Shown here piece by piece: positions 389 to 57,269 of a stretch of DNA of 64,000 nt (positions are counted from its first letter, which is position 1; the number at the start of each line of letters is the position of its first letter). Under the pieces are notes generated by a model. That model was not told the origin of the DNA and did no database searches. It was given only the letters and a program-made list of their open reading frames with translations. This stretch comes from Kineothrix sp. IPX-CK (GTDB taxonomy: Bacteria > Bacillota > Clostridia > Lachnospirales > Lachnospiraceae), in NCBI RefSeq assembly GCF_039134705.1, contig NZ_CP146256.1:124001-188000 (forward strand), in the 5' to 3' direction. A program made the translations under genes and the position numbers.

Positions 389-414
389 AGACAATATACT
401 TTGAATATCAAACT
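372..414 (+). promoter_or_regulatory. Promoter of the fatty acid operon with FabT-type operator
   Basis: TTGACA at 372-377 and TATACT at 395-400 are separated by exactly 17 bases, a near-perfect vegetative promoter. The palindrome ACTTTGAATATCAAACT at 398-414 overlaps the end of the -10 box and the expected transcription start. Its core TTTGA-N3-TCAAA is the published shape of FabT boxes in streptococci (family knowledge), and a FabT-like gene lies at 56829. A bound repressor there would block the polymerase. The -35 box is inside the coding end of the upstream gene. Confidence 0.85.
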
Positions 415-454
415 AATTTAAAAAAAGATAAGTATTATAAAAGGAGATATTAAA

Positions 455-688
455 ATGTTAGAAAGAGTAAAAGAAATTATCCAGGAACAATTGAGCTTAG
501 ACGGTGTTGAAATTACGGAAGAATCCTCCTTTAAAGAAGATTTGGGAGCGGATTCCCTCGATTTATTCGAATTGGTCATGGCTTTTGAAGAAGAATACGG
601 TATTGAGATTCCTTCCGAAGATCTTGAGAAGATTACAACGGTTGGAGCTGTAATAGAATATATGAAGAACAAAGGCGTAGAAGCATAA
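455..688 (+). CDS. acpP: Acyl carrier protein
   Basis: 77-residue acidic protein that carries growing acyl chains on a 4'-phosphopantetheine arm in the cytoplasm. The attachment site is Ser34 in [10 protein letters not shown], with the usual helix that follows ([13 protein letters not shown]). Length and sequence fit a type II ACP throughout. AAAGGAG lies about 9 bases before the ATG. It is the first gene of the fab operon and its stop codon is one base from the fabK start, so fabK is probably coupled. An ACP outside fatty acid synthesis is unlikely given the neighbours. Confidence 0.97.
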
Positions 689-689
689 G

Positions 690-1613
690 ATGGAGACGAG
701 AATAACCAAATTACTGGGAATCGAATATCCGATTATACAAGGCGGTATGGCATGGGTTGCGGAGTATCACCTTGCGGCAGCAGTATCCGAGGCGGGAGGC
801 CTGGGGCTGATTGGAGCAGCCAGTGCCCCTGCCCAAATCGTGAGACAGCAGATTCGCGAAGCGAAGAAGCTGACGGATAAACCGGTGGGTGTGAATATCA
901 TGCTGTTGAATCCTAATGCCGAAGAGGTGGCAAAGCTCATTGTAGAGGAAGACGTAAAGGTAGTCACCACCGGAGCCGGCAATCCGGGCAAGTATATGGA
1001 GCTGTGGAAAAATGCAGGTGTAAAAGTGTTTCCTGTAGTTGCCAGTGTAGCTATGGCTAGAATGATGGAGCGCGCAGGCGCCGATGCGGTAGTTGCGGAA
1101 GGAACCGAGGCAGGGGGGCATATAGGAGAGTCCACCACCATGTCTTTGCTTCCTCAGGTGGCGGATGCCGTGAGTATTCCAGTGATAGGAGCGGGCGGAA
1201 TCGCCGATGGAAGAGGCTTTGCGGCGGCTATGATGCTGGGAGCGGAGGCTGTGCAAATGGGTACGATATTCGCAACGGCGAAGGAATCTATCGTACATGA
1301 CAGCTACAAGCAGAAAATATTCGCCGCCAAGGATATCGATTCGGAGGTGACAGGAAGAAGCACGGGTCATCCGGTACGTTCCCTTAGAAATAAAATGACG
1401 AGGGAATACTTGAAGATGGAAGAAGAAGGCGCTTCCTTCGAGGAGCTGGAATATCTGACTCTGGGTTCTTTAAGAAAGGCCGTGATAGATGGCGATGTAG
1501 TAAACGGAACGATTATGGCAGGACAGATAGCCGGCCTGATAAAAGAAGAAAAGAGCTGCAGTGAAATCATTCAGGAAATCATGTCGCAGGCGGAAAAATT
1601 ATTAAAATTGTAA
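690..1613 (+). CDS. fabK: Enoyl-ACP reductase II, FMN-dependent
   Basis: 307-residue TIM-barrel flavoenzyme that reduces trans-2-enoyl-ACP, the last step of each elongation cycle, replacing FabI in many Firmicutes. Seen in the sequence: the N-terminal YPIIQGGMAWVA, the EGTEAGGHIG loop with the conserved His, VIGAGGIADGRG and the GAEAVQMGTIF phosphate-binding strand, in FabK order. Length matches the family (about 310-320). It starts one base after the acpP stop. A related but distinct enzyme is encoded at 5452; this one is the better match to true FabK because of the EAGGHIGE loop and its place next to acpP. Confidence 0.93.
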   Translation: METRITKLLGIEYPIIQGGMAWVAEYHLAAAVSEAGGLGLIGAASAPAQIVRQQIREAKKLTDKPVGVNIMLLNPNAEEVAKLIVEEDVKVVTTGAGNPGKYMELWKNAGVKVFPVVASVAMARMMERAGADAVVAEGTEAGGHIGESTTMSLLPQVADAVSIPVIGAGGIADGRGFAAAMMLGAEAVQMGTIFATAKESIVHDSYKQKIFAAKDIDSEVTGRSTGHPVRSLRNKMTREYLKMEEEGASFEELEYLTLGSLRKAVIDGDVVNGTIMAGQIAGLIKEEKSCSEIIQEIMSQAEKLLKL

Positions 1614-1625
1614 GGGATGAGGTAT

Positions 1626-1652
1626 GCAGCTTAACACTTGCTGTTAAGCTGC
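1626..1652 (+). promoter_or_regulatory. Perfect 11-bp hairpin between fabK and fabD
   Basis: GCAGCTTAACA (1626-1636) and TGTTAAGCTGC (1642-1652) are perfect inverted copies around the 5-base loop CTTGC. A run of eight Ts follows only some 25 bases later (about 1678-1685), so this is not a classical terminator. It could be a weak attenuator, an RNA processing site or a DNA operator before fabD. Confidence 0.5.
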
Positions 1653-1692
1653 TGAGTGAACAGTACGGGCAGACTCCTTTTTTTAACATAAT

Positions 1693-1709
1693 ACTTTGAT
1701 ATTCAAAAT
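1693..1709 (+). promoter_or_regulatory. FabT-type operator upstream of fabD
   Basis: ACTTTGATATTCAAAAT has the same TTTGA-N3-TCAAA core (1695-1707) as the site at the acpP promoter. A possible -10 (CATAAT, 1687-1692) overlaps it, but I see no good -35. It suggests a second, FabT-controlled entry point for transcription of fabD onward, or a roadblock within the operon. Confidence 0.7.
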
Positions 1710-1740
1710 AAAACGACAAATGGAAAGGCAAGGTTTTATT

Positions 1741-2646
1741 ATGGGTAAAACAGCTTTTATTTTTCCCGGTCAGGGAGCGCAATATATTGGGATGGGAAAG
1801 GACTTTTACGAGCAATTCACAGTAAGCAGAGAGATGTTTGAACTGGCAGAGAAAGCGGCTGGCCTGGATGTGGCTTCTCTTTGCTTTGAAGAGAATGAAA
1901 GAATTCATATTACGGAGTATACACAGATAGCGATGCTCGCGACTGAGGTAGCTATTTTAAAAGCGATAGAGGAAAAAGGATATAGGCCTGATGTTACAGC
2001 GGGCTTAAGTTTGGGAGAATACGGTGCACTTGCAGCGGCAGGTATCATGAGTCCGGAGAATATATTCAGGATAGTGAGAAAAAGAGGCATTTACATGCAG
2101 GAAGCCGTGCCCCGGGGAGGAGCTATGACGGCAGTACTCGGCCTCCCGGCGGACATAATAGAAAAAACGTGTGAAAAGATAGAAGGTTCTGTAAGTATAG
2201 CCAACTATAACTGCCCGGGACAGATCGTAATTACCGGAGAAGCGGAAGCGGTAGAGAAAGCAGCTTCGCAGTTGCTGACGGAAGGAGCGAAAAGATGTAT
2301 TCCTTTGAATGTCAGTGGACCTTTCCACTCCCCTCTTCTTGCAGGCGCGGGAGAAAAGCTGAGTGAAGAGCTAAGAGATGTCGAGGTACACGATATAAAG
2401 GTTTCGTATCTTTCCAATGTAACGGGGGATTACGTAACGGCTAAGGAGCAGGTGAAATCGCTCTTAGTCCGTCAGGTATCCTCATCCGTGAAATGGCAGC
2501 AGAGCGTGGAGCGTATGTTAGAGGATGGAGTCGATACATTTATTGAAATCGGACCGGGCAAGACGCTTAGCGGATTCATACGGAAAATCAGCAAAGATGT
2601 AAAAGCAGTCAATATTGAAAAGATAGATGATTTGGAGAGGATTTAA
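1741..2646 (+). CDS. fabD: Malonyl-CoA:ACP transacylase
   Basis: 301-residue cytoplasmic enzyme that moves malonyl groups from CoA to ACP. N-terminal [10 protein letters not shown] oxyanion motif (residues 6-15), nucleophile Ser90 in GLSLGEYGA and catalytic His196 in GPFHSPLL are all present. The frame is open upstream to 1696, but AAGGCAAGG sits 7 bases before the ATG at 1741 and homologues begin at this point, so I place the start there; the longer version would run through the operator. Two bases separate its stop from fabG. Confidence 0.95.
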
Positions 2647-2648
2647 GT

Positions 2649-3395
2649 ATGGGAATGTTAGAGGGAAAAGTAGCGCTTGTAACTGGCGCCAGCCGAGGAA
2701 TCGGCCGTGAGATCGCTCTTACGCTGGCGAGCTATGGGGCAGATGTCATCGTTAACTACAACGGCAGTGAGGACAAAGCAAATGCGGTGGTGAAAGAAAT
2801 TGAGGCCATGGGAAGAAGAGCGGTGCCGGTACAGTGTTCTGTTGCAGATTATGAAGCCTGCGGAAGAATGATAACGGATATGCTGGAGTTGTTCGGACAT
2901 ATTGACGTTCTTGTAAACAACGCCGGAATTACGAAAGATAACCTCATGATCAAGATGACCGAAGAAGATTTTGATGCAGTAATAGATACCAATTTAAAAG
3001 GAACCTTTAACACGATAAAGCATATGTATCGAGCATTTATCAAGCAAAGGAGCGGAAGGATCATAAATCTATCCTCCGTATCCGGAGTGCTGGGCAATCC
3101 CGGACAGTCGAATTACGCAGCTTCCAAAGCGGGAGTGATAGGCCTTACAAAGAGCATGGCAAAGGAACTTGCAAGTAGAAACATTACAGTAAACGCAGTA
3201 GCTCCGGGATATATCGATACGGATATGACACAGTCCATGAGCGAGACCGCCAGAGAGGCAGTTATTGCGCAGATACCGCTTAAACGTGCCGGACAGCCGA
3301 AGGATATTGCGGAAATGGTGGCATTTTTGGCCAGTGACAAGGCCGGATATATTACCGGTCAGGTAATCTCGGTAGATGGTGGTATGGCGATATAA
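2649..3395 (+). CDS. fabG: 3-oxoacyl-ACP reductase
   Basis: 248-residue short-chain dehydrogenase that reduces 3-ketoacyl-ACP with [13 protein letters not shown] cofactor loop (12-19), NNAG (90-93), catalytic Ser143, Tyr156 and Lys160 (YAASK) and the C-terminal [12 protein letters not shown] are all in place. Position between fabD and fabF argues for FabG rather than another SDR. An ATG two codons further in is an equally possible start. The gene is followed by a long palindromic repeat before fabF. Confidence 0.95.
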
Positions 3396-3400
3396 GTAAT

Positions 3401-3674
3401 TAGGTAATTGCGAAACTATTATATTATGCAAATTTTATGTGCCAGATTATATTTATCGACAACTTTCCACGGTGGATTTGTTTTTTTCTCCGGCGTTTGC
3501 GGCTGTATTTTTAAAGGAAACCTTGAAGCAGTCATAACCGGACGGGTCGGTTTCCTTAAGAAAATACAAGCCGCTCACTAAAGGAGGCAAAAACAGACAC
3601 ACTGTGGAAAGTTTTAGCTAAGTTATGAAATGGCACATAAAATTGGTGAAGGTAACGAGTTTCGCAATTACCTA
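3401..3674 (+). repeat. Palindromic repeat element, copy 1 (fabG-fabF gap)
   Basis: This 308-base gap is filled by one long imperfect palindrome. Nested arms: TAGGTAATTGCGAAACT (3401-3417) with its complement at 3658-3674; ATTTTATGTGCCA (3432-3444) with 3631-3643; AACTTTCCACGGTG (3461-3474) with 3600-3613 (one mismatch); GCGGCTGTATTTT (3499-3511) with AAAATACA..GCCGC (3561-3574, one bulged base); AAGGAAACC (3514-3522) with GGTTTCCTT (3549-3557). The inner part, about 3450-3646, recurs at 32991-33256. No coding potential is evident. It could be a MITE-like element or a structured RNA in the fab transcript. fabF has its own AAAAGGAG site just after it. Confidence 0.85.
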
Positions 3675-3703
3675 TAAACAAGTAATATAAAAAGGAGAAG
3701 GAA

Positions 3704-4939
3704 ATGAGCAGGAGAGTAGTTGTTACCGGTTTGGGGGCTATTACGCCCATAGGGCTTAGCGTGGATGAATTTTGGGCCGGCGTGAAGGAAGGAAAAGTAG
3801 GATTCGATAAGATTACAAAGTTCGATGCTTCCGAGTATAAATGTAAGCTGGCTGCGGAAGTAAAGGGTTTTGAAGCGAAGGACTACATGGATGTTAAGGC
3901 GGCCAAAAGAATGGAACTGTTCGGTCAGTATGCGGTAGCTGCGACCAAAGAAGCACTTGAGGATGCCGGAATCGATATGGAAAAAGAAGACAAATTTAAG
4001 ATAGGAGTATCCATGGGATCAGGGATCGGTTCTCTGCAGGCTATGGAAAGAGAGCATACCAAGCTCCTGGAGAAAGGGCCGGGACGCGTCAATCCCCTGC
4101 TGGTACCACTTATGATCAGCAATATGGCGGCGGGCAATGTATCCATTCAGTTCGGACTAAAAGGAAAAAATATTAATGTTGTTACAGCCTGCGCTACGGG
4201 AACCAACTCTATCGGGGAAGCATACCGCTCCATTCAGTACAAAGATGCGGATATAATGGTAGCCGGAGGGACGGAAAGCAGTATCACGCCCGTAGGAGTT
4301 GCCGGTTTTACGGCGCTGACAGCGCTTACCTCTTCGGAGAATAAGGATAGATGCTCCATTCCCTTCGATAAGGAAAGAAGCGGATTTGTTATGGGAGAAG
4401 GCTCTGCGGCGGTCATCTTGGAGGAATTGGAGCATGCAAAGAAAAGAGGAGCGAAGATTTACGCGGAGGTCGTAGGCTACGGCTGTACAGCGGATGCTTA
4501 TCACATCACCTCTCCCGCAGAGGATGGGGAAGGTGCGGCAAAGGCTATGGAATTCGCCATAGAGGATGCGGGAATCCTGCCGGAGGATATTACCTATATT
4601 AACGCTCATGGAACGAGCACCCATCACAACGATTTATTCGAGACGAGAGCAATCAAGAAGACCTTTGGCAGTCATGCAAAGAAAATAAAAATCAATTCGA
4701 CGAAATCGATGGTGGGACATTTGCTAGGAGCAGCAGGAGCTCTTGAATTCGTGACCTGTGTAAAGGAATTGGAGGAGGGTTATATTCACCGCACGGTGGG
4801 TTATCAAGTACCGGATGAAGAGTGTGATCTGGATTACTGCAAGGAAGCGGCGGAGGAGACATTTACTTACGCACTTTCCAATTCTCTTGGATTCGGCGGG
4901 CATAATGCCACTATAATCGTAAAAAAGTATGCAGAATAA
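3704..4939 (+). CDS. fabF: 3-oxoacyl-ACP synthase II
   Basis: 411-residue condensing enzyme that extends acyl-ACP with malonyl-ACP. The Cys-His-His triad is visible: Cys163 in VTACATGTN, His302 in NAHGTSTHHND and His339 in GHLLGAAGALE, with the usual Lys in STKSMVGH. Length equals FabF family members (about 410). AAAAGGAGAAGG precedes the ATG. It is separated from fabG by the palindromic repeat but keeps the operon direction. Confidence 0.96.
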   Translation: MSRRVVVTGLGAITPIGLSVDEFWAGVKEGKVGFDKITKFDASEYKCKLAAEVKGFEAKDYMDVKAAKRMELFGQYAVAATKEALEDAGIDMEKEDKFKIGVSMGSGIGSLQAMEREHTKLLEKGPGRVNPLLVPLMISNMAAGNVSIQFGLKGKNINVVTACATGTNSIGEAYRSIQYKDADIMVAGGTESSITPVGVAGFTALTALTSSENKDRCSIPFDKERSGFVMGEGSAAVILEELEHAKKRGAKIYAEVVGYGCTADAYHITSPAEDGEGAAKAMEFAIEDAGILPEDITYINAHGTSTHHNDLFETRAIKKTFGSHAKKIKINSTKSMVGHLLGAAGALEFVTCVKELEEGYIHRTVGYQVPDEECDLDYCKEAAEETFTYALSNSLGFGGHNATIIVKKYAE

Positions 4940-4953
4940 GATGTTCATTTTCG

Positions 4954-4966
4954 ACTTGATATCAAA
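4954..4966 (+). promoter_or_regulatory. Weak, non-canonical FabT-like palindrome before fabZ
   Basis: CTTGATATCAAAA contains the perfect palindrome TTGATATCAA (4956-4965). Compared with the three good sites, the half-sites are one base closer (N2 instead of N3), so binding is doubtful. It lies in the 72-base fabF-fabZ gap. Confidence 0.3.
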
Positions 4967-5011
4967 AAAAATAAATCAGAAATGTGTAAAAACACTCATT
5001 AGGAGAGAGAA

Positions 5012-5455
5012 ATGTCCGTTTTAACGACAAAGGAAATTATGGAAATTATTCCCCACAGGCACCCGTTTCTGCTCGTAGACACTATAGAGGAACTGGAGCC
5101 GGGTATAAAGGCAAAGGGGAAAAAATGTGTAACTTATAACGAGCCGTTTTTTGCAGGACATTTTCCGGGGGAGCCTGTCATGCCGGGAGTGCTTGTAGTA
5201 GAGGCTCTGGCGCAGGTAGGGGCTGTGGCGCTGCTCGCTCATCCGGACTTCAAGGGAAAGACTGCGTATTTCGGAGCAATTAATTCGGCGAAATTCAAGA
5301 AAAAAATCGTGCCCGGAGATGTTCTTTTGCTGGAAACGGAAATTATTAAAATGAAAGGCCCTATCGGCATAGGCAGCGCAAAGGCGTATGTGGATGGAAA
5401 GCTGGCAGTGCAGGCAGAGCTTACTTTTGCCATAGGCAGCCTGGAGGAAGCATGA
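5012..5455 (+). CDS. fabZ: 3-hydroxyacyl-ACP dehydratase
   Basis: 147-residue hot-dog-fold enzyme that removes water from 3-hydroxyacyl-ACP. Catalytic His50 (FFAGHFPGEPVMPGV) and Glu64 (VVEALAQVG) are present, and the IIPHRHPFLLVD opening is typical. A FabA-type isomerase is unlikely because FabA has a different opening and a longer chain. GGAGAGAG precedes the ATG. The stop overlaps the next gene by ATGA, so the two are translationally coupled. Confidence 0.95.
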   Translation: MSVLTTKEIMEIIPHRHPFLLVDTIEELEPGIKAKGKKCVTYNEPFFAGHFPGEPVMPGVLVVEALAQVGAVALLAHPDFKGKTAYFGAINSAKFKKKIVPGDVLLLETEIIKMKGPIGIGSAKAYVDGKLAVQAELTFAIGSLEEA

Positions 5456-6537
5456 GCAATAGTTTATTAAAACCCTTAAAAATAGGAGACCTTACGGCGA
5501 AGATTCCGGTAGTTCAGGGAGGAATGGGTGTAGGCATCAGTCTGTCCGGGCTGGCCGGAGCGGTAGCGGCTCAGGGCGGTGTAGGCGTTATTTCCACCGC
5601 ACAAATCGGATATAAAAGCGAAAGCTTCAGCAAGGACCCGATAGGGTGTAATCTGCGTGCCATAAAGGACGAGATAGATAACGCGAGAAGGATTGCCGGA
5701 AGCGGAATTATCGGCGTTAACATCATGGTAGCGACAAAACGATATGAGGAATACGTAAAAGCAGCAATAGAGGCAGGCGTGGACATCATCATATCGGGAG
5801 CGGGACTGCCAATGGCTTTGCCGGAGCTGGTGGGAAAGGCCAGGACAAAGATTGCGCCTATCGTTTCAAGCCTTAAGTCGGCACAGATTATCATAAAATA
5901 TTGGATGAAGAAATATGACAGACTGCCGGATATGGTCGTGATAGAAGGCCCGCTTGCCGGAGGGCATCTGGGTTTTAAGAACGAACAGCTTACCCATATG
6001 GAAGAGCTGGATTATGATGGAGAAATCCGTAGGATTATCGGGCATGTAGCGGAATGTGCGAGCGAACATGGCAAAGAAATCCCGGTGGTGGTCGCAGGAG
6101 GAATCTATACGAGAGAAGATGCGGAGCACGCTTTCACGCTTGGAGCATCCGGTGTTCAGTTAGCGACCCGGTTTGTAACGACTTATGAATGTGACGCTTC
6201 ACAGGCTTATAAACAGGCATATATAGATGCCACAGAGGATGACATTATAATCGTAAAAAGCCCGGTGGGAATGCCGGCACGGGCTATCTCCAACGAGTTT
6301 ACTAGAAGAACTTCAGAAGGAAGGATACCTCCAAGGAAGTGCTTCAATTGTATTATAACCTGCAACCCGGCAGAGACACCATATTGTATCACGCAGGCTC
6401 TCATAAACGCGGTAAACGGGAATGTAAAGGACGGACTTCTCTTCTGTGGAGCAAATGCCTGCAGAGCCAGGAAGCTGGAACATGTAAAGGATATTATGAA
6501 AGAATTTGATGTAGACGGAGAACAGTGTGAAAAATGA
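5452..6537 (+). CDS. FMN-dependent nitronate monooxygenase / FabK-like enzyme
   Basis: 361-residue TIM-barrel flavoprotein of the nitronate monooxygenase (2-nitropropane dioxygenase) and FabK superfamily. Visible: IPVVQGGMGVGIS at the N-terminus, GPLAGGHLGF with the conserved His, VVVAGGIYTRED and GASGVQLATRF. The last 60 residues carry a cysteine-rich stretch (RKCFNCIITCNP, then two more Cys before the end), which FabK lacks. It overlaps fabZ by four bases and lies inside the fab operon, so a role in acyl or lipid reduction, or removal of a toxic nitronate, is possible; I cannot choose. Its stop codon lies inside the hairpin of the leader repeat before fabH. Confidence 0.8.
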   Translation: MSNSLLKPLKIGDLTAKIPVVQGGMGVGISLSGLAGAVAAQGGVGVISTAQIGYKSESFSKDPIGCNLRAIKDEIDNARRIAGSGIIGVNIMVATKRYEEYVKAAIEAGVDIIISGAGLPMALPELVGKARTKIAPIVSSLKSAQIIIKYWMKKYDRLPDMVVIEGPLAGGHLGFKNEQLTHMEELDYDGEIRRIIGHVAECASEHGKEIPVVVAGGIYTREDAEHAFTLGASGVQLATRFVTTYECDASQAYKQAYIDATEDDIIIVKSPVGMPARAISNEFTRRTSEGRIPPRKCFNCIITCNPAETPYCITQALINAVNGNVKDGLLFCGANACRARKLEHVKDIMKEFDVDGEQCEK

Positions 6538-6608
6538 ATTTTCACACGCAAATTTGTGCCTGCGGCCCAAAGTTTGCAGTTTGTGAGAAAGGCAGGGTTA
6601 TTGGTATG
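6525..6608 (+). repeat. Leader repeat, copy A, upstream of fabH
   Basis: Begins with a 9-bp hairpin (GTGTGAAAA 6525-6533, TTTTCACAC 6539-6547) that spans the previous stop codon. Next comes a second hairpin made by GCAAATTTGTGCC and GGCCCAAAGTTTGC around a TGC loop (6548-6577), then a ribosome-site tail GAGAAAGGCAGGGTTATT and the fabH ATG. The second hairpin and tail recur almost unchanged at 56043-56104 before another gene's ATG. Read as protein, the repeat gives a spurious CACGPKF N-terminal extension. Confidence 0.75.
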
Positions 6609-7607
6609 ATGAGAATAATAGGGACGGGAAGCTGTCTCCCTTTAAATGTGGTAACTAACGACGATTTATCAAAAATTATGGATACCTCCGATGAATGGAT
6701 TTCCAGCCGTACGGGTATAAAGGAGAGAAGACTGGCTAAGGAAGAGACCACGGCTTCCATGGCGGCGGAAGCTTCGCAAAAAGCGCTTAAGAATGCAGGA
6801 GTCGGTGCGGATGAAATCGATTTGATTATTGTAGGGACAATTACCGGGGACTATGTAACTCCATCTACCTCCTGCGAAGTGCAGGCAAAACTTGGGGCGG
6901 CAAATGCGGTGGCGTTCGATGTGAATGCTGCCTGCTCGGGCTTTATGTTCGCGCTCCATACTGCTTACGTTTACTTGCAGTCAGGCATTTATAAAACGGC
7001 GCTTATCGTTGGAGCGGAGACACTGTCGAAGATTATGGACTGGAACGACAGAAGCACCTGTGTCCTTTTTGGTGACGGAGCGGGAGCAGCCGTAGTGCGT
7101 ACATATGCGGACGGAGAGTCGGGAGAGAGAGAAATGGAAGGAAGAGGCAGGGGGGGCTTGCTTGCCTTTACTCAGGGATCTGATGGAGCGAAGGGAAGTG
7201 TTCTTGCGTGCAGGGATCGTGTAAATAATAATCCACTGATTCAGAATCCCTATGAACTTGGTTATGTATCAATGGATGGTCAGGAAGTATATAAGTTCGC
7301 AGTGAGTACGGTGCCTTCATCTATTATAAAGGTGCTTGAAATGTCGCAGCTGAAAACAGAGGATATTAAATATTTTGTACTTCATCAGGCGAATATCAGA
7401 ATCATTCAGTCCGTGGCAAAGCGCCTGAAGGTGAGTGAAGATAAATTCCCGTTGAGTCTGGACCATTGCGGAAACATATCCGCGGCAAGCGTGCCCATTC
7501 TTTTGGATGAGATGAATCAGAAGGGAATGCTCCGCCCGGGAGACAAGATAGTCATGTCTGGCTTTGGAGCCGGGCTTACGTGGGGAACCGCCGTAATCGA
7601 ATGGTAA
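6606..7607 (+). CDS. fabH: 3-oxoacyl-ACP synthase III
   Basis: 333-residue initiating condensing enzyme joining acetyl- or branched acyl-CoA with malonyl-ACP. Cys110 in NAACSGFMFA, His260 in LHQANIRI and the Asn of CGNISAAS form the triad; the ISSRTGIKERR segment is typical. The frame is open to 6534, but that extension is the leader repeat (same CACGPKF peptide appears before an unrelated gene), so I start at 6606, with AGGG 8 bases upstream; the ATG at 6609 is equally possible. It ends the operon. No acc (acetyl-CoA carboxylase) genes follow, unlike in streptococci. Confidence 0.95.
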   Translation: MMRIIGTGSCLPLNVVTNDDLSKIMDTSDEWISSRTGIKERRLAKEETTASMAAEASQKALKNAGVGADEIDLIIVGTITGDYVTPSTSCEVQAKLGAANAVAFDVNAACSGFMFALHTAYVYLQSGIYKTALIVGAETLSKIMDWNDRSTCVLFGDGAGAAVVRTYADGESGEREMEGRGRGGLLAFTQGSDGAKGSVLACRDRVNNNPLIQNPYELGYVSMDGQEVYKFAVSTVPSSIIKVLEMSQLKTEDIKYFVLHQANIRIIQSVAKRLKVSEDKFPLSLDHCGNISAASVPILLDEMNQKGMLRPGDKIVMSGFGAGLTWGTAVIEW

Positions 7608-7623
7608 GGAAAAAGGATTTTCC
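7608..7623. terminator. Short hairpin between convergent fabH and response regulator genes
   Basis: GGAAAA-AGGA-TTTTCC forms a 6-bp stem immediately after the fabH stop and 5 bases before the end of the convergent regulator gene. It is short and lacks a clear T run, so it is at best a weak bidirectional terminator. Confidence 0.3.
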
Positions 7624-7627
7624 CATT

Positions 7628-9166: not shown

Positions 9167-9187
9167 ATAAACTTATACTCCTATTTT

Positions 9188-10954: not shown

Positions 10955-10985
10955 AATTCCAAGCCTTTCACTAGTTAGGATACGT

Positions 10986-17301: not shown

Positions 17302-17307
17302 AAGTTG

Positions 17308-48660: not shown

Positions 48661-48663
48661 CGA

Positions 48664-48686
48664 TAAAAAAAGTCCCTGAGGGACTT
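48664..48686 (-). terminator. Terminator of the hemerythrin-like gene
   Basis: AAGTCCC-TGA-GGGACTT stem (48670-48686), followed on the minus strand by a run of seven Ts. It lies 9 bases past that gene's stop and also next to the stop of the convergent ATPase gene. Confidence 0.85.
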
Positions 48687-48694
48687 AATACTTG

Positions 48695-49120: not shown

Positions 49121-49314
49121 ATTTACCTCCGGTAAGATGAAAATGATTAAGAGTTTTAACCATGACGTGCAAAACGAACATTACTATAATATACTACTAA
49201 AGTACTATCTGCAACCGTAAAATAAAAATTAATGATAAATTTTATGTAAAAACATAGGCAGAAAGTACATATATACTTATGAATTTTTTTTGAGAATGTT
49301 AAGGAGACTGTACA

Positions 49315-49749
49315 ATGGTACTAATAAGTGCGATTGCCGCCATATCTTTGATGGCAGTTATTACATTAATATGTATTATGAAGCGCAAGGCGGGAGGACC
49401 TTCCCCGATTGATGAGATGGAGGGACGGGATTTTGAGCAGTTTTGTGCGGAGCTATTGAGGGAAAGAGGCTTCGTTGAGGTGGAGGTAACGAAAGGCAGC
49501 GGCGATTATGGCATTGATATATTAGCTGAGAAGGACGGAGTTACTTATGCCATCCAATGTAAACGCTATGATACCCCGGTAGGAGTGAAGGCAATACAAG
49601 AAGCATATGCGGGCAGAGACTACTACGACCGCATGGTAGGCGCAGTACTTACTAACCAATATTTTACAGCGCCTGCCGTAGAGGCGGCAAAAAAGTTAAA
49701 AATATTATTATGGGACAGAGGATACTTGGACAGCATGATGCAGGAATAG
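49315..49749 (+). CDS. Membrane-anchored Mrr-type nuclease-domain protein
   Basis: 144 residues: one N-terminal membrane helix (about 3-22), short linker, then an Mrr_cat/restriction-endonuclease-like domain (35-144). The nuclease core is intact: MEGRDFEQFCAELLRERGF, GSGDYGIDIL with Asp68, and AIQCKRY with Gln81 and Lys83. The membrane helix plus PD-(D/E)xK domain layout is known among orphan Mrr-like proteins. No methyltransferase or specificity subunit is nearby, so it is not a standard restriction system. AAGGAGACTG precedes the ATG. Confidence 0.85.
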   Translation: MVLISAIAAISLMAVITLICIMKRKAGGPSPIDEMEGRDFEQFCAELLRERGFVEVEVTKGSGDYGIDILAEKDGVTYAIQCKRYDTPVGVKAIQEAYAGRDYYDRMVGAVLTNQYFTAPAVEAAKKLKILLWDRGYLDSMMQE

Positions 49750-49862
49750 ATAATTATTGACTCCCACTCCAAAAAGAAGTACGATGTATACTACTATTAT
49801 ATTCGCGGCAGAATTCAATTCTTTGGGACCGCGTTCATCTATTTTCCAGGAGGGAAGCACGA

Positions 49863-51620
49863 ATGAAAAGGGAGAAAAGAGGTACTAAATTTACTATTCA
49901 GTTCAAGTTGATTATTATTTGCAGCCTTTTGTTGATAATACCGTTGCTGTTGACGGGAGTTTTCAGCTATATGACAGCCAAGTCGGAGCTCGATAAAAAG
50001 GGCGAGATCATATTAAAAAACAGTGTGGAGCAGGCGCTTCAACTGATAGATGCGAAACAGGCGGAGGTGGAGAGGGGAACTCTGACTCTCGAGGAGGCAC
50101 AAGAACAAGTCAAGGTTGCCTTGCTTGGAGAAAAGGATGCGGAAGGGAAGCGCCTGATTAACTCTACGGTTAACTTGGGACAAAACGGATACTTTGTCGT
50201 GTACGATGCACAAGGCAATGAAGTTGCCCACCCGTCTCTGGAAGGACAGAATGTATGGGATGTGGAAGATAAGAGCGGCGACGGCACGAAATTTGTTCAG
50301 GAGCAAATCAACTCGGGAATTAATGGTGGCGGCTATGTGACTTATACTTGGAACCTGCCTGACTCCGAGGCGACGGCACTTAAGATATCCTACCAGAAGC
50401 AGGAAGCAGACTGGGGATGGATCGTGTCGGCCGGCTCCTATGCTATGGACTATAACGAAGGTGCTACTACCATTTTGCAAACGCTGACTATAGTCCTGAT
50501 CGTATCACTCATCGTCGGCCTGATGATTATTTTGCTTTTCGCCCGCCACATTTCCATGCCTATCCGCCAAATAGGCAGATCCTTGGAGCAGGTTTCGGAC
50601 GGAAATATCAGTATTCCGGCGCTGGCAGTTAAGAACCGGGATGAGACAGGGCTATTAGGTCAGTCCTTCAATACCATGCTCTATAATATGCAGGATCTTG
50701 TGGCAGCCCTGAAAGAATCTTCAAGTACAGTTCTTCGATTTTCGGATTCTCTTGCCGGCATAACGGATGAAACCTCCAAGGCGATCAACGAAGTGGCTGT
50801 TACCATTCAGGAAGTCGCAAGTGCCGTATCTGATGAGGCTTCCAGCGTTGCGGACACGGTGAACAAGGTGGACGCGCTGGCAAATAACATAGAATCGGTG
50901 TCGGAATCGACAGAAGAAATGAACCGCACCACACAGAATACAGAAGAACTGCGGGAGAGCGGACTGAATGCCGTCGAGATGCTTTCGTCTTCCATGAGCA
51001 AGACGAATGGCGCGATTCGTGAAATTGATGAAGTCATTAATAAAGTAATGGAAAGTGCTAACAATATACATTCGGTAACGGAAGCGATTATCCAAATATC
51101 CGAGCAGACTAACCTTCTTGCCCTCAACGCTTCCATAGAAGCGGCCAGAGCGGGAGAGGCGGGAAAAGGCTTCGCGGTGGTCGCAGAGGAAATTCGCAAG
51201 CTTGCGGAGCAGTCCGCGGCGGAAGTAGGAGAAATAAACGGCGCTATCAGCGAGATTCATACATATGCGAATTCTTCTGTAAAGACGATGTCTTCGGTAC
51301 TTGGAGTTATAGAAGAGCAGTCCTTGGCGGTTGATAATACGAAGGAGGCGTTCGTAAATATCGCGGAAGAAATAAAGGTACTCATTGACGGAGTATTGTC
51401 AATTACGGAGGATAGCAGGCAGATGCGCCAGATGAAGGACGAAATCGTAGGAAATATGGAATCCATTTCCGCATCTACGGAAGAGACATCTGCAGCTACG
51501 CAGGAAGTCTCAGCGACTTCAGAAGAACAGCTGGCATCCATGGAAGAGGTAGCCGCTCAAACCAATGAACTGAAGGAGTTGGCGGAGCAGTTAGAAGCGG
51601 TTGTGCAAAGATTTAAGTAA
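49863..51620 (+). CDS. Methyl-accepting chemotaxis protein with Cache sensor
   Basis: 585 residues. TM1 about 17-38, extracellular Cache-type domain about 40-205 ([47 protein letters not shown]), TM2 about 210-232, HAMP ([20 protein letters not shown]), then signalling coiled coil with tip [20 protein letters not shown] and adaptation sites at both ends. It differs from the receptor at 43185 in the sensor, so it detects another ligand. GGAGGG precedes the ATG. Confidence 0.94.
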
Positions 51621-51702
51621 TAGAAAACAGAATTATTGGATAATAAAAGTGAAGCGAAGAGCACTAGCTGATTTATAATTAAACGATAATATATTGCATG
51701 AA

Positions 51703-51736
51703 AAGTTGTATCATTTAAAATGGTACAACTTTTTTT
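51703..51736 (+). terminator. Terminator after the chemoreceptor gene
   Basis: AAGTTGTATCAT and ATGGTACAACTT pair with one mismatch around TTTAAA, followed by TTTTT. Lies 80 bases after the stop codon. Confidence 0.82.
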
Positions 51737-51765
51737 AATTTGTATTATAAATATACTTTTATATA

Positions 51766-51794
51766 TTGACAAGTAAAAGGGAAAAATATATTAT
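51766..51794 (+). promoter_or_regulatory. araA promoter
   Basis: TTGACA (51766-51771), 17-base spacer, TATTAT (51789-51794). TTTAC-TG-GTAAA follows at 51808-51819, a short palindrome that could be an operator. This gives a 5' leader of some 190 bases before araA. Confidence 0.75.
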
Positions 51795-51860
51795 TATTCT
51801 ATAAAGATTTACTGGTAAACGGTAGATGTTTATATGTATTACATAAGATATGATTGAAAC

Positions 51861-51937
51861 TTGCGTCGGCAGAGCTCATATAGAACAATACAACTGACGC
51901 AAAAAGAGTACAACTTTGCCGACAAGTCGGCCTCTGC
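51861..51937 (+). promoter_or_regulatory. Structured leader upstream of araA
   Basis: Several pairings compete: TTGCGTC (51861-51867) with GACGCAA (51896-51902); GCAGAG (51869-51874) with CTCTGC (51932-51937); and the local GCCGAC-AA-GTCGGC (51918-51931). It is GC-richer than the surrounding region. I do not recognise a known riboswitch. It fills most of the 372-base gap together with the terminator and promoter above. Confidence 0.5.
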
Positions 51938-51992
51938 GATCGGCATATCGGTATAACAACTACAAACAACAAGCTTATAGGAGGATTGAATA

Positions 51993-53489
51993 ATGAAAAC
52001 AGGAAAGAATTATAAATTTTGGTTTTGCACCGGCTCTCAGGATTTGTATGGAGATGAATGTCTCGCAAAGGTAGCGGAGCATTCAAAGATTATTGTAGAG
52101 AATCTGAACAAGTCCGGCATACTGCCTTTTGAAATCGTATGGAAGCCCACTCTGATTACTAATGAGCTCATAAGAAAGACCTTCAACGAAGCTAATGCGG
52201 ACGTAGAATGCGCTGGCGTTATCACATGGATGCACACCTTTTCCCCTGCGAAGTCATGGATACTCGGACTTCAGGAATACAGAAAGCCGCTGATGCACCT
52301 TCATACCCAGTTTAACGAAGAGATTCCTTACGACACCATCGATATGGATTTCATGAACGAGAACCAGTCCGCTCACGGAGACCGGGAATACGGACATATC
52401 GTAAGCCGTATGGGAATCGAGAGAAAGATCGTAGTCGGGCATTGGAGCGATAAAGAAGTTCAGAAGAATCTTGCTGACTGGATGAGAACAGCGATCGGCA
52501 TCATGGAATCCTCTCATATCCGCGTATGCCGTATTGCGGACAACATGAGAAACGTAGCGGTAACGGAAGGTGATAAAGTAGAAGCGCAGATCAAATTCGG
52601 GTGGGAAATCGATGCTTATCCCGTCAATGAGATCATAGAATATGTAAAGGATGTAAAAGAGGGGGAAATTAATTCTCTCGTTGACGAATATTATACCAAA
52701 TATGATATAATCTTGGAAGGAAGAGATGCGGCTGAGTTCAGAAGACACGTGGCTGTTCAGGCAGGTATTGAAATCGGCTTTGAGAAATTCCTGGAAGAGA
52801 AGAACTATCAGGCTATCGTTACCCACTTCGGAGATTTAGGAGAGCTGAAGCAGCTTCCGGGACTGGCTATCCAGAGACTTATGGAAAAAGGCTACGGATT
52901 CGGCGGCGAAGGTGACTGGAAGACGGCAGCTATGGTCCGTTTGATGAAGATTATGACTTCCGGTATTAAGGATGCCAAGGGGACCTCCTTTATGGAAGAT
53001 TATACCTATAACCTTGTGCCCGGCAAGGAAGGCATTCTTCAGGCTCATATGCTGGAGGTATGTCCTACCGTCGCGGACGGAAAAGCAGGAATCAAAGTAA
53101 ATCCGCTTTCCATGGGTAACAGAGAAGAGCCTGCCCGTCTTGTATTTACTTCCAAGACTGGTCCGGGGGTAGCCACCTCCCTGATCGATTTAGGAACGAG
53201 ATTCCGTCTGATCATCAATGCGGTAGACTGTAAGAAGGTAGAAAAGCCAATGCCGAAGCTTCCGGTTGCGACAGCATTCTGGACGCCTCAGCCTAACCTT
53301 AAGGTAGGAGCGGAGGCTTGGATACTGGCAGGCGGCGCACACCATACGGCATTCTCTTATGATCTTAGCGTGGAGCAGATGGCAGACTGGGCGGCAGCTA
53401 TGGGAATCGAAAGCGTTGTTATCGATAATGATACGACGATCAGGAACTTCAAGAATGAACTCAGATGGAATGAAATCGCATTCAGATAA
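51993..53489 (+). CDS. araA: L-arabinose isomerase
   Basis: 498-residue cytoplasmic enzyme that converts L-arabinose to L-ribulose. FWFCTGSQDLYGDECL at the N-terminus, WMHTFSPAKSWILGL, HLHTQFNEEIPY, FGGEGDWKTAAMVR, and the C-terminal GGAHHTAFSY with the metal His are typical. Length equals E. coli AraA (500). AGGAGG lies 9 bases before the ATG. First gene of an araA-araB-araD operon; no araR or arabinose transporter is in the window. Confidence 0.97.
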   Translation: MKTGKNYKFWFCTGSQDLYGDECLAKVAEHSKIIVENLNKSGILPFEIVWKPTLITNELIRKTFNEANADVECAGVITWMHTFSPAKSWILGLQEYRKPLMHLHTQFNEEIPYDTIDMDFMNENQSAHGDREYGHIVSRMGIERKIVVGHWSDKEVQKNLADWMRTAIGIMESSHIRVCRIADNMRNVAVTEGDKVEAQIKFGWEIDAYPVNEIIEYVKDVKEGEINSLVDEYYTKYDIILEGRDAAEFRRHVAVQAGIEIGFEKFLEEKNYQAIVTHFGDLGELKQLPGLAIQRLMEKGYGFGGEGDWKTAAMVRLMKIMTSGIKDAKGTSFMEDYTYNLVPGKEGILQAHMLEVCPTVADGKAGIKVNPLSMGNREEPARLVFTSKTGPGVATSLIDLGTRFRLIINAVDCKKVEKPMPKLPVATAFWTPQPNLKVGAEAWILAGGAHHTAFSYDLSVEQMADWAAAMGIESVVIDNDTTIRNFKNELRWNEIAFR

Positions 53490-53528
53490 TAACATGGGCG
53501 TCAAGCAAGGAAAGGGAAGGGGTATCGG

Positions 53529-55124
53529 ATGAAAGACATAAAAGAGATGATACTGGCCGGTAAGACGGCGATTGGAATTGAACTCGGATCTACCAGAATA
53601 AAGGCGGTCTTGATAGGGGAAGACAATTCTCCTATCGCTTCCGGCAGCTTTGGATGGGAAAATCAATACAAAGATAATTTTTGGACCTACAGTCTGGAGG
53701 ACGTATGGAAGGGTCTTCAGGAGAGTTATCGCGCTTTGGCGGCGGAGGTGAAGAGCAAATATGATGTTTCCCTCCAAACGGTAGGATCCATCGGCTTCAG
53801 TGCCATGATGCACGGATATATGGCATTTGATAAAGAGGGCGAGCTTCTCGTCCCGTTCCGTACATGGAGAAATACTACCACCGGTGAGGCGGCGGCAGAG
53901 CTGACCGAACTGTTCCGGTATAACATTCCCCAGAGATGGAGCATTTCTCATTTGAGACAGGCGATTCTGGGTAAAGAAGCTCATGTGAAAAACATCGATT
54001 TCTTCACAACCCTTGCCGGCTACGTGCATTGGATGCTGACGGGAGAAAGAGTGCTGGGCGTAGGCGACGCTTCCGGTATGTTCCCTATAGATATCGATAC
54101 TGCGGATTATAATGAGCGTATGGTAGGACAGTTCGACAAGTTGGTAGCAGGAGAGAACTATCCATGGAAGCTTAGGGAGATTCTTCCGAAGGTGCTCTGC
54201 GCGGGAGAAAGCGCCGGAGTGCTTACGGAGGAAGGTGCAAAGCTGTTAGATCCTACGGGCGGCTTGAAGGCAGGAATTCCCCTTTGCCCTCCGGAAGGGG
54301 ATGCAGGAACCGGTATGGCAGCTACCAACAGCGTAGCGGTGAGAACAGGAAATGTTTCTGCCGGAACAAGCATATTCGCCATGATTGTGTTGGAAAAGGA
54401 GCTTTCCAAGGTATATCCTGAAATAGACCTGGTTACTACGCCGGATGGCAGTCTGGTGGGAATGGTTCATTGCAATAACTGTACGTCGGACTTAAATGCA
54501 TGGGTTAATATATTTAAGGAATTTATGGAGACGATAGGCCTTACTGTGAACATGGGCAAACTTTATGATGATTTATATTTTAAAGCTCTGGAAGGAGATG
54601 CAGACTGCGGCGGATTGGTGTCCTACTGCTATTTCTCGGGAGAACCCGTTACCGGTTTCGATGAGGGACGTCCTCTGTTCGCCCGCGAGATGAACTGCAA
54701 TTTTAACCTCGCCAACTTCATGAGGAGCCACTTATATTCTTCTTTGGCAGCATTGAAGATTGGTTTGGACATTTTGTTCAAGGAAGAGAAAGTTCAGGCC
54801 GATGAAATCTTCGGACACGGTGGTTTGTTTAAGACCAAGGGCGTTGGACAAGGATTTTTGGCGGCGGCTATGGATACTCCCGTATCTGTTATGGAGACGG
54901 CCGGAGAAGGCGGAGCATGGGGAATCGCTCTTCTGGCTTCCTTTATGCAGAACAAAGCGAAAGACGAGACGCTTTCAGAATATTTGAACGAGAAAGTATT
55001 TGCAGGAAATAAAGGCACTAAGATGGAACCTGATGTTAAAGATGTGGCTGGTTTTGATGCATTTATCAGCCGCTATAAAGCAGGCTTCCCTATGGAACGG
55101 GCAGCCGTAGAGTCTATGAAATAA
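53529..55124 (+). CDS. araB: FGGY sugar kinase, probable L-ribulokinase
   Basis: 531 residues, FGGY/actin-like ATPase: [14 protein letters not shown] phosphate loop, [44 protein letters not shown] (C-terminal adenosine site; shown in part) and [14 protein letters not shown]. By sequence it is nearer to the clostridial xylulokinase-like branch than to E. coli AraB, so ribulokinase activity is inferred from its place between araA and araD: it would phosphorylate L-ribulose. GGGAAGGGG precedes the ATG. Ten bases separate it from araD. Confidence 0.85.
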
Positions 55125-55134
55125 GAGGAGAAAT

Positions 55135-55830
55135 ATGTTAGAAGAACTGAAAAAGCAAGTATATGAGGCAAATATGCTGCTTCCGAAATATGGACTGGTT
55201 ACTTTCACATGGGGAAACGTGAGCGCGATCGATAGAGAAAAGCAGCTTTTTGTCATTAAGCCCAGTGGAGTGGAATACGACAAATTGACACCCGAAGACA
55301 TGGTAATTATGGACCTTGACGGCAATAAGGTGGAAGGAAGATACAATCCCTCCTCCGATACGCCCACTCATTTAGAGCTGTATAAAGCATTTTCCAAGAT
55401 AGGTGGTATCGTGCATACTCATTCCTCATGGGCTACAAGCTGGGCGCAGGCAGGACGTGGAATCCCTTGCTACGGGACTACTCACGCTGACTATATGTAT
55501 GGAGAGATTCCCTGTGTCAGGTGCTTGACCAAGGAGGAAATTGAAGGGGCATATGAGAAAAATACAGGTCTTTTGATCGCGGATTACTTTGCGGATAAGG
55601 ATTATGAAGCAGTTCCTGCAGTTCTCTGCAAGAATCACGGCCCCTTTTCGTGGGGTAAGGATGCGCATGAAGCGGTTCATAATGCAGTAGTGCTGGAAGA
55701 AGTGGCGAAGATGGCGGCGCGCGCTGAGAGGATCAACAGTCGGATAGAGCCTGCTCCTCAGGAACTTCAGGATAAGCATTACTATAGGAAGCATGGCGTT
55801 AACGCATACTATGGACAGACAGAAAGCTAA
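55135..55830 (+). CDS. araD: L-ribulose-5-phosphate 4-epimerase
   Basis: 231-residue class II aldolase-fold zinc enzyme, giving D-xylulose-5-phosphate for the pentose phosphate route. Zinc ligands VHTHSSWAT (two His) and [10 protein letters not shown] (third His) are present, as are [15 protein letters not shown] and KPSGVEYD. Length equals E. coli AraD (231). AGAGGAGAAAT lies just before the ATG. Last gene of the operon, followed by a strong terminator. Confidence 0.97.
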
Positions 55831-55850
55831 TTAAGAAAAGAATTATTAGA

Positions 55851-55888
55851 AATAGCCGTAAACGTGAGAGAAATTGTTTACGGCTATT
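55851..55888 (+). terminator. Terminator of the arabinose operon
   Basis: AATAGCCGTAAAC (55851-55863) and GTTTACGGCTATT (55876-55888), a perfect 13-bp stem with 12-base loop, followed by TATTATTTC. Confidence 0.9.
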
Positions 55889-56002
55889 TATTATTTCTCA
55901 AAAATGCCGATACACATATAAAGGATATGAAAAGGATAAACTGTACGCATAGGCAATGTATTTCGGACAACAAGATCAGCCTGTGCAGAAATGGAGGGAC
56001 AG

Positions 56003-56104
56003 TGTGAAAAAATTATTTTTCACAGCATAATTTATTATGCTTGCAAATATTGTGCCTGCGGCCCAAAGTTTGCAGGCTATGAGAAAGGCATGGTTATTAA
56101 TATG
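56003..56104 (+). repeat. Leader repeat, copy B, upstream of the unknown gene
   Basis: Same plan as 6525-6608: hairpin TGTGAAAAA-ATTA-TTTTTCACA (56003-56024), then an extra hairpin GCATAA-TTTA-TTATGC (56025-56040) not in copy A, then the shared hairpin block from GCAAATATTGTGCC to GGCCCAAAGTTTGC (56043-56073) and the tail GCTATGAGAAAGGCATGG-TTATTAAT ending at the ATG of 56102. Confidence 0.75.
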
Positions 56105-56752
56105 AATATCGGCGGAATGAGTTTTTTACAGGAGGACTATCGCAGGGCTGCGGTAACGGTACCCGCGGCCGGCAAATCGGTACTTAATAATACGGACGAT
56201 TATGAATTTCTTCAAATAAAAGAAAGCCGTTTGGAGAAGGGGAGGACGGAAAGTGACGCCTTGCCTAAGAAGGGAGAAGGCGCACCCTATTCCTATCTTG
56301 CAGATGCAAATGGTATCATTGATTATAAAGGAGTTATATTCGTCTGTGATAATGAGAAGAGGGAGCTTTGTCTGGGCGATGTGCAGAGCAATCCTGACGA
56401 TGTAATACGCATTCCCCTGTCAGGCGGCGGATGCCTGAAAGTCAATAGAAATAATATCGACGATTTATCCAAAGCAATCGGCATGTTTTCGCCGGAGGAC
56501 ATCAATCTTATTCTACGCGCTCTGAAAATGGATGCTAAGATTCAGCAGATGAAGCGGGAAATAGAAGAGATGGAAGACGGTGTAGGTAAGAGCAGCGGGG
56601 AGCAGAACGCGGACAGCGTTAAAGCGGCGAAGGAAGCCGAGGAAAATACGACGAAGGCAGGTGGCTTCAACGGCTATGAGGAGTCGGAGAAGGAGGGCGT
56701 CTTCGGCTTGCTGGAATGGCAGCTCGACCTGCTTACGGAAGAAGCGAAATAA
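56102..56752 (+). CDS. Hypothetical protein
   Basis: 216 residues, not recognised. Soluble, no signal peptide. Middle part SYLADANGIIDYKGVIFVCDNEKRE-like beta segment then IRIPLSGGGCLKVNRNNID, followed by FSPEDINLILRALKMDAKIQQM and a Glu/Lys-rich low-complexity stretch (about 150-195), ending GLLEWQLDLLTEEAK. The frame is open to 55991, but that part is the leader repeat, so I start at 56102. It lies just before the FabT-like gene but on a separate promoter from it. Confidence 0.7.
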   Translation: MNIGGMSFLQEDYRRAAVTVPAAGKSVLNNTDDYEFLQIKESRLEKGRTESDALPKKGEGAPYSYLADANGIIDYKGVIFVCDNEKRELCLGDVQSNPDDVIRIPLSGGGCLKVNRNNIDDLSKAIGMFSPEDINLILRALKMDAKIQQMKREIEEMEDGVGKSSGEQNADSVKAAKEAEENTTKAGGFNGYEESEKEGVFGLLEWQLDLLTEEAK

Positions 56753-56766
56753 TTGAGACAGAAAGA

Positions 56767-56797
56767 TTTGACCGTCAAAGAAAAGGCGTGATATACT
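56767..56797 (+). promoter_or_regulatory. Promoter of the FabT-like gene with FabT-type operator
   Basis: TTTGA-CCG-TCAAA (56767-56779) has the same arms and spacing as the sites before acpP and fabD. It overlaps the -35 TTGACC (56768-56773), 18 bases before TATACT (56792-56797). This fits autorepression. Confidence 0.82.
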
Positions 56798-56828
56798 TGT
56801 ATTACTATGAACTACGGAGAGTGATACG

Positions 56829-57269
56829 GTGGAAATCAGGCGGACACTGAATGAAATACTCGTAAAGCTGTTTCGCAATATCAACGATATTGAGGAACGG
56901 GCGATTCAGACAGAGGAATATAAAGGCGTTACTACAAATGACATGCACGTCATCGAAGCGATCGGTTTGGGCAGCCCCAAGAATATGACTGCCGTCGCCA
57001 AATCCCTTGGCGTTACTACGGGCACACTCACAATAGCGGTGAACAGCCTGGTAAAAAAGGGATTTGTGAACCGGGAAAGAAGCGAAGAGGATAGGCGTGT
57101 TGTTTTAGTGTCCTTATCGCTCAAGGGTAAGAAGGCCTACGATCATCACCAGCGTTTCCATGAGGAAATGATAGACGCCGTAATTGCGCACCTTACTGAA
57201 GAAGAGAAGATTGTTTTAGAGAAAGCACTCCTGAATTTAAATGATTTTTTTATCGGCAAGAATAAGTAG
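56829..57269 (+). CDS. fabT: FabT-like MarR-family repressor of fatty acid synthesis
   Basis: 146 residues, winged-helix MarR protein. By eye it follows streptococcal FabT along its length: N-terminal helix with IEERAI, TTNDMHVIEAIG, SLGVTTGTLTIAVNSLVKKGFVNRERSEEDRRVV-class winged helix (recognition helix about 62-78, wing about 85-95), FHEEMIDAVIAHLTEEE and LNLNDFF at the end. FabT binds acyl-ACP and represses the fab operon. The GTG start has GGAG 9 bases upstream. It is 50 kb from the fab operon, but its own promoter and the fab promoters carry the same palindrome. Family assignment is from memory; the matching operators are strong independent support. Confidence 0.85.
   Translation: MEIRRTLNEILVKLFRNINDIEERAIQTEEYKGVTTNDMHVIEAIGLGSPKNMTAVAKSLGVTTGTLTIAVNSLVKKGFVNRERSEEDRRVVLVSLSLKGKKAYDHHQRFHEEMIDAVIAHLTEEEKIVLEKALLNLNDFFIGKNK

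Follow-up and report, generated by a model that had tools for sequence, protein, structure and literature searches.

The 64-kb window analysed here (the whole stretch of 64,000 nucleotides from Kineothrix sp. IPX-CK, contig NZ_CP146256.1) carries a fab operon for fatty acid synthesis near one end and, near the other, a gene for a MarR-family protein. Sequence comparison supports the view that this protein is an orthologue of the regulator FabT, encoded away from the fab operon and tied to it by a shared operator. The same comparison establishes the boxes of FabT type and their conservation in relatives, the missing acc genes and the shared absence of several of these elements from the same genomes. 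Taken together, the finding is probably a FabT regulon of an ordinary kind with dispersed members, the fourth of which was not expected: a lone carboxyltransferase gene that lies beyond the window and suggests an unusual route to malonyl-CoA. We think it likely, judging from the genes, that within this regulon the carboxyltransferase replaces AccDA, and that malonyl-CoA is made from carboxybiotin charged by OadA. The regulator, its predicted boxes and the remote gene are as follows.

56829..57269, + strand: fabT orthologue, MarR family, 146 aa, GTG start (FabT profile, structure match, best match genome-wide)
56767..56779, no strand: predicted FabT box at the fabT promoter, TTTGACCGTCAAA (motif match; includes the −35-like TTGACC)
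372..400, + strand: acpP promoter-like site, TTGACA-17-TATACT (consensus match)
400..412, no strand: predicted FabT box at acpP, TTTGAATATCAAA (its first base is the last base of the −10 hexamer)
1695..1707, no strand: predicted internal FabT box in the fabK/fabD gap, TTTGATATTCAAA (motif match; kept in 10 of 13 genus fab clusters)
G000:C1:858528 (L025:3529-5184), outside the window: lone PccB/12S-type carboxyltransferase gene, 551 residues (PF01039, 613 bits, full-length)

The FabT orthologue and its boxes in the window

The NCBIfam FabT model (NF050133) matches residues 8-141 of the protein encoded at 56829 with 137.7 bits and is by far its best family. Among solved structures it comes closest to pneumococcal FabT (6jbx; 98 bits, the next match reaching 43), with which it shares 53 of 136 aligned residues. 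The initial annotation had called the protein FabT-like, and this is borne out by a scan of the host genome with the FabT profile, which returned no rival copy: among 16 matches (E up to 10) this protein scored 137.1 bits and the next 45.4 bits. The host genome (G000; G and L numbers denote genomes and loci) is a single contig of 4,723,253 bases, 98% complete. It belongs to the genus of Kineothrix, in Lachnospiraceae, and the closest named proteins come from Kineothrix alysoides and Kineothrix sp. MB12-C1.

The palindrome TTTGANNNTCAAA occurs in the window exactly three times, as first noticed, at 400-412, 1695-1707 and 56767-56779, each time shortly 5′ of a gene. The first box ends 42 bp before the acpP start and the second 33 bp before the ATG at 1741, the assumed start of fabD. 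The third holds TTGACC (56768-56773), which is followed by TATACT at 56792 and by the GTG start at 56829, a promoter read by eye. The acpP box is kept in 12/12 evaluable genus fab clusters (the G007 contig ends first). Among these boxes the fabT self-site makes the weakest case, being exact in five of the nine remote fabT genes of the genus, with one mismatch in two more, and exact in only 4 of 20 other relatives scanned.

As had also been proposed, fabT is encoded far from the fab operon, at a distance of 49-56 kb and with its own promoter. In eight order-level relatives the FabT orthologue adjoins fabH at the head of the fab cluster, a gene labelled accC following in six of the eight, and it closes an accDA-bearing fab cluster in G008, G010, G020 and G021. 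Nine genus genomes have it away from the fab genes, as do G018, G023, G027, G030 and G034 elsewhere in the family. The remote copies of the genus cluster with G018 in a tree that requires three position changes overall and does not give the number of fabT moves. Tree and self-site scan cover 29 of the 31 genomes with a FabT match, G036 (fragments) and G045 being left out together with second FabT copies in G037, G049 and G059; L050 falls in no tree group. An oligoendopeptidase gene stands beside the remote fabT in the window and in all eight genus relatives fetched. In the five genus genomes with both genes on one contig (G014, G011, G012, G001 and that of the window), fabT and fabD are about 45-77 kb apart.

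The lone carboxyltransferase and the missing acc genes

The fourth predicted box, at 858475, lies upstream of the carboxyltransferase gene, about 0.7 Mb away; the next long open reading frame (ORF) 3′ of that gene is on the opposite strand. An exact box precedes every close copy of the gene in the genus (10/10 genomes), and the box is found in 78 of 80 Lachnospiraceae loci, 77 of them with an exact box no more than 250 bp upstream and one, L226, with a box overlapping the match start; the two exceptions are L203, with a one-mismatch box, and L215, with none. These loci are the best 80 of 192 confirmed relatives in a scan of named genomes, 78-84% identical and all close relatives, and they overlap the ten genus genomes (at least L160, L161, L163, L164 and L170 are G003, G001, G012, G005 and G002). 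The other 558,042 bases of the 80 loci hold one box only, and the reversed pattern is present in a single one of the 80 upstream stretches. Aligned around 79 boxes, the columns mostly read ATA-S-TTTGA-N3-TCAAA-S-TAT. Among the neighbours of the gene in the 80 loci, no homologue of AccC, BCCP, OadA or FabT was detected (tblastn, 1e-8, flanks up to 4 kb).

The biotin carboxylase C-terminal domain PF02785 was found in none of the 16 genus genomes, the host included (E up to 0.001), and accC in none of them either (E up to 1e-60), whereas 32 of 45 other relatives have PF02785, among them 16 of the 21 that belong to the family, and each of the two biotin carboxylase searches succeeded in 13 of 14 control genomes. 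The initial remark that the fab genes lack acc partners thus holds for the window operon, and genome-wide for accA and biotin carboxylase. The remote carboxyltransferase, out of sight of that first reading, has a bearing on the same remark. AccA (TIGR00513) was found in G008 and G010 only, as AccDA fusions, and not in the other 14 of the 16. Because the genus is without a recognisable biotin carboxylase, and 14 of its 16 genomes without AccA, the putatively FabT-controlled carboxyltransferase most likely forms malonyl-CoA. No biotin carboxylase was found in two genomes of other genera whose fab clusters contain accDA-type genes, G021 (family; 67% complete) and G046 (order), and loss of the enzyme is therefore not confined to the genus. 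Fab clusters with accDA-type genes and without accC are seen in L248 (G021), L253 (G046), L146 and L147, apparently an intermediate stage.

The genus for the most part retains a full fab operon, and with no biotin carboxylase found it must obtain malonyl-CoA by some other route. In the window the operon has the order acpP-fabK-fabD-fabG-fabF-fabZ-(FabK-like)-fabH, and every product except that of the FabK-like gene scores above its family cut-off.

455..688, + strand: acpP, acyl carrier protein (ACP; NCBIfam TIGR00517, 101.5 bits, above cut-off)
690..1613, + strand: fabK, enoyl-ACP reductase II (TIGR03151, 473 bits, above cut-off)
1741..2646, + strand: fabD, malonyl-CoA:ACP transacylase, ATG at 1741 assumed (TIGR00128, 310 bits, above cut-off)
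2649..3395, + strand: fabG, 3-oxoacyl-ACP reductase (TIGR01830, 344.5 bits, above cut-off)
3704..4939, + strand: fabF, ketoacyl-ACP synthase II (TIGR03150, 598 bits, above cut-off)
5012..5455, + strand: fabZ, hydroxyacyl-ACP dehydratase (TIGR01750, 164.6 bits, above cut-off)
5452..6537, + strand: second FabK/nitronate-monooxygenase-like flavoprotein (PF03060; TIGR03151, 121 bits, below the cut-off of 453)
6609..7607, + strand: fabH, ketoacyl-ACP synthase III (TIGR00747, 368 bits, above cut-off)

The FabK-like gene (5452-6537) occupies the slot between fabZ and fabH that holds accDA in G008 and G010; in G005 and G012 nothing lies between fabZ and fabH. In the fabK/fabD gap, a perfect 10-bp inverted repeat at 1626-1652 lies 5′ of the internal FabT box; the fold of the 86-base hairpin stretch there is little better than those of its shuffles (z −1.45, 17/200 as good).

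A different reading, which we judge unlikely, is that the carboxyltransferase is under FabT control but acts on propionyl-CoA or methylmalonyl-CoA, for instance for odd-chain primers, with malonyl-CoA coming from an unrecognised source. The nearest families of the protein are indeed MmdA and the propionyl-CoA carboxylase beta subunit (TIGR01117, 755 bits, below the cut-off of 999), and its matches in the Protein Data Bank include 1vrg (641 bits), 6ybp and 1on3. The acyl pocket bears on the point. Ile occupies one pocket position in the G000 protein and in 90 of 90 loci (at least five genomes being counted twice), and at the same alignment position the propionyl-CoA carboxylase chains 6ybp and 6ybq have Asp and Ile, respectively. 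On our reading of the alignment, this position would be the residue whose change from Asp to Ile raised the use of acetyl-CoA in published mutants; according to the accessible part of that work, Asp versus Ile helps to determine which of propionyl-CoA and acetyl-CoA is preferred, but does not act by itself (PMC7835884). The Ile is also present in Thermotoga 1vrg, which bears the name propionyl-CoA carboxylase, and the residue is therefore not diagnostic. Between its two halves the Kineothrix protein has a stretch of 38 residues (268-305) where 1vrg has 12. Gene content speaks against a propionyl-CoA or methylmalonyl-CoA role: the carboxyltransferase swaps with accDA, since G008 and G010, the two genomes with accDA, are without a close copy of the box-bearing gene, and the close copy is missing together with fabD in G004, G015 and G013, although no search by name was aimed at other sources of malonyl-CoA. 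Close copies (81-100% identity) occur in 10 of the 16 genus genomes, and all ten have fabD. The three genomes from which fabD is absent (G004, 99% complete; G015, 98%; G013, 65%) are without FabT and the close carboxyltransferase alike, so that the nearly complete G004 and G015 may depend on outside fatty acids.

It is also possible, but in our view distinctly improbable, that these bacteria have an ordinary acetyl-CoA carboxylase whose biotin carboxylase is too divergent to be recognised or is missing from the assemblies. The absence rests on two family searches and several of the genomes are fragmented; against this stand the failure of both searches in all 16 genus genomes when the same searches succeed in most other relatives (PF02785) and in nearly all controls, and the host assembly itself, which is one nearly complete contig.

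The enzyme that the genes most readily suggest for charging the biotin is OadA. A single biotin carrier scores above cut-off in G000, the genome in which carriers were counted genome-wide, and its gene cluster also encodes a second carboxyltransferase, an OadG-like protein and OadA, which passes the PRK12331 cut-off. In G000 (L156:5848-9974), G014 and G007 (L156, L159 and L296) the OadA cluster does not contain a sodium-pump beta subunit.

Several observations pull away from a malonyl-CoA route of this kind, besides the Ile of 1vrg. In 11 of the 14 genus clusters examined, a sodium-pump beta subunit is encoded between the carrier and OadA, and the main role of OadA may therefore be decarboxylation; two of the 11 beta subunits were tested against the family (TIGR01109, 487 and 489 bits) and nine were recognised from their size and position and, in so far as it could be seen, their N-terminal sequence. 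The three fabD-less genomes have OadA as well, so the protein is not dedicated to fatty acids. G015, although without fabD, has a carboxyltransferase of 46% identity, and further family members of 49-53% identity occur in G014, G001, G002 and G003, so the family has other uses too. Finally, G006 (81% complete) has fab genes, fabD among them, while the close carboxyltransferase, accA and FabT were not found in it.

Specificity of the box

Within the window, none of 100 dinucleotide shuffles contained TTTGANNNTCAAA three times or more (mean 0.21, largest 2), and for the window and for the position of the boxes the initial assertion that their recurrence is far beyond chance can be kept. Allowing one mismatch brings the window down to chance level (5 observed, 4.95 expected). 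The assertion does not carry over to the genome, in which the bare core has 12 sites in 4.72 Mb against about 15 expected from the window shuffle density (0.21 per 64 kb) and the core read backwards has four; the core is therefore not clearly enriched. Outside the window there are nine core sites, of which seven fall within ORFs of 135-589 aa on one strand or the other. Of the two left, 858475 is the site at the carboxyltransferase, and 1748785 is under no ORF of at least 100 aa and lies 158 bp past the 3′ end of an ABC-transporter ORF. Each of the 13 genus genomes with fabD has more copies of the core than of the reversed pattern; in the three without fabD, core and reversed counts are 2 to 3, 2 to 5 and 8 to 5.

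Being near chance level genome-wide, the bare 10-base core was dropped as a predictor of the regulon. The expectation that the regulon could be predicted directly from sequence fails for that core alone but is upheld for the extended box together with its conservation. In the 4.72 Mb of the genome the extended box ATACTTTGANNTTCAAA has three matches with no more than one mismatch: at acpP, at fabD and, before the carboxyltransferase, at 858471. None of its 15 two-mismatch matches lies before a recognised fatty-acid gene, save the other strand of the acpP box. Ten of the 12 that were fetched are within ORFs of at least 187 aa; the ORFs around the other two, 2950212 (177 aa) and 3492127 (79 aa), are perhaps not genes, and the latter site is 94 bp before an unrelated-looking ORF of 478 aa. 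Of the remaining three, one is the acpP box read on the opposite strand, another is 3800787, a core site that falls within an ORF, and the last is 178983 (54983-54999 of the window, within the ORF at 53529-55124).

Three points count against FabT as the protein that recognises these boxes. First, its score of 137.7 bits is under the curated NF050133 cut-off of 200; the fab-cluster-resident relatives L251 and L147 are likewise under it (170.6 and 132.7 bits), and the cut-off may therefore suit Lactobacillales rather than these families. Second, the self-site is absent in two of the nine remote fabT genes of the genus. Third, G003 and G006 keep the boxes, G003 together with the carboxyltransferase, and no FabT was found in either (E up to 1e-12). 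Both assemblies are in many pieces, that of G003 in 710 contigs (97% complete) and that of G006 in 510 (81% complete), and the missing FabT is possibly a matter of assembly gaps. Another MarR protein, or an unrelated repressor, could be invoked to explain such box-bearing genomes, and the 16 FabT-profile matches in the host lean the same way; we hold this to be highly improbable, because only one of those matches is good and the box is of the published FabT kind, given as ANTTTGACTGTNAAATT for the pneumococcal protein in the portion of that report available (PMC8406281). That the window boxes are chance 10-base matches, with the MarR protein regulating a local gene such as the adjoining oligopeptidase, is scarcely credible: the genome-wide count of the core, the peptidase gene that accompanies remote fabT in the genus and the −35-like hexamer in the fabT box, half of which may therefore be promoter sequence, all lean that way, but the acpP, fabD and carboxyltransferase boxes are conserved over genus and family and orthologues of the MarR protein reside in fab clusters elsewhere.

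Proposed control of malonyl-CoA formation and known systems

DNA binding, repression, the response to acyl-ACP, enzyme activity and the carboxyl donor are all deduced here from gene and protein sequences, and on that footing the following scheme is proposed for FabT and the carboxyltransferase. A FabT dimer would bind boxes of the ATA-S-TTTGA-N3-TCAAA-S-TAT type that overlap promoters, the box being placed at the −10 end at acpP, just past the −10 at the carboxyltransferase and at the −35 at fabT. FabT bound there would block RNA polymerase, presumably more strongly with long-chain acyl-ACP. The regulon would comprise at least four sites, controlling acpP-fabK, fabD onward, fabT itself and the lone carboxyltransferase, and abundant acyl-ACP would lower the elongation genes and the carboxyltransferase together. 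The biotin carrier would most simply be charged by OadA from oxaloacetate, and the carboxyltransferase would move the carboxyl group from carboxybiotin to acetyl-CoA, yielding malonyl-CoA. We lean, if only modestly, towards a broader statement, that a clade of gut Lachnospiraceae has dropped the ATP-dependent acetyl-CoA carboxylase and forms malonyl-CoA through biotin-dependent transcarboxylation from oxaloacetate by a stand-alone, FabT-controlled PccB-type enzyme that has supplanted AccDA, as the regulated entry step of fatty acid synthesis. Bacteria commit to fatty acid synthesis at the acetyl-CoA carboxylase step, and the enzyme is an antibacterial target. In the open-licence literature searched, we found nothing on malonyl-CoA formation by transcarboxylation, or on a missing biotin carboxylase, in such bacteria. 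If the scheme is right, the FabT box singles out the likely malonyl-CoA enzyme by sequence alone.

The FabT regulons of Streptococcus pneumoniae and Enterococcus faecalis resemble the one proposed here in having a MarR-family FabT and a TTTGA-type palindrome at fab promoters and at fabT, and streptococcal fab operons in having an internal FabT-regulated promoter, as far as the accessible parts of these papers describe them (PMC13046290, PMC8406281, PMC9083066). The action of FabT in Lactobacillales is stronger with acyl-ACP, according to the available text of one of them (PMC9083066). A commentary of 2026 states, in the part accessible, that in enterococci, streptococci and lactococci the operon under FabT control begins with fabT, a coupling deemed important, and the E. 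faecalis fab operon described there extends through accA (PMC13046290). The Kineothrix window operon, in contrast, is without acc genes, and its fabT is uncoupled, 49-56 kb away under its own promoter, with a further predicted box at a remote carboxyltransferase gene. It thus provides a comparison-based counter-example to fabT always residing in the operon under its control.

As to the enzyme, the Kineothrix protein shares a full-length Carboxyl_trans domain with the beta subunit of propionyl-CoA carboxylase, MmdA and the 12S subunit of methylmalonyl-CoA carboxyltransferase; unlike theirs, its gene stands alone and bears a FabT box, and its product has the 38-residue stretch in place of the 12 residues of 1vrg. 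It would resemble AccABCD acetyl-CoA carboxylase in its presumed product, malonyl-CoA, and in its predicted control by FabT, and a carboxyltransferase and a biotin carrier are present in both cases, whereas AccA and biotin carboxylase were not found in the host genome. The transcarboxylase of Propionibacterium consists of 12S, 5S and 1.3S subunits. Kineothrix has a comparable list of parts, as read from its genes, with a carboxyltransferase, an OadA/5S-like protein and a biotin carrier and without biotin carboxylase; it differs in that the carboxyltransferase is encoded apart from the other parts and in that the proposed acceptor is acetyl-CoA rather than propionyl-CoA.

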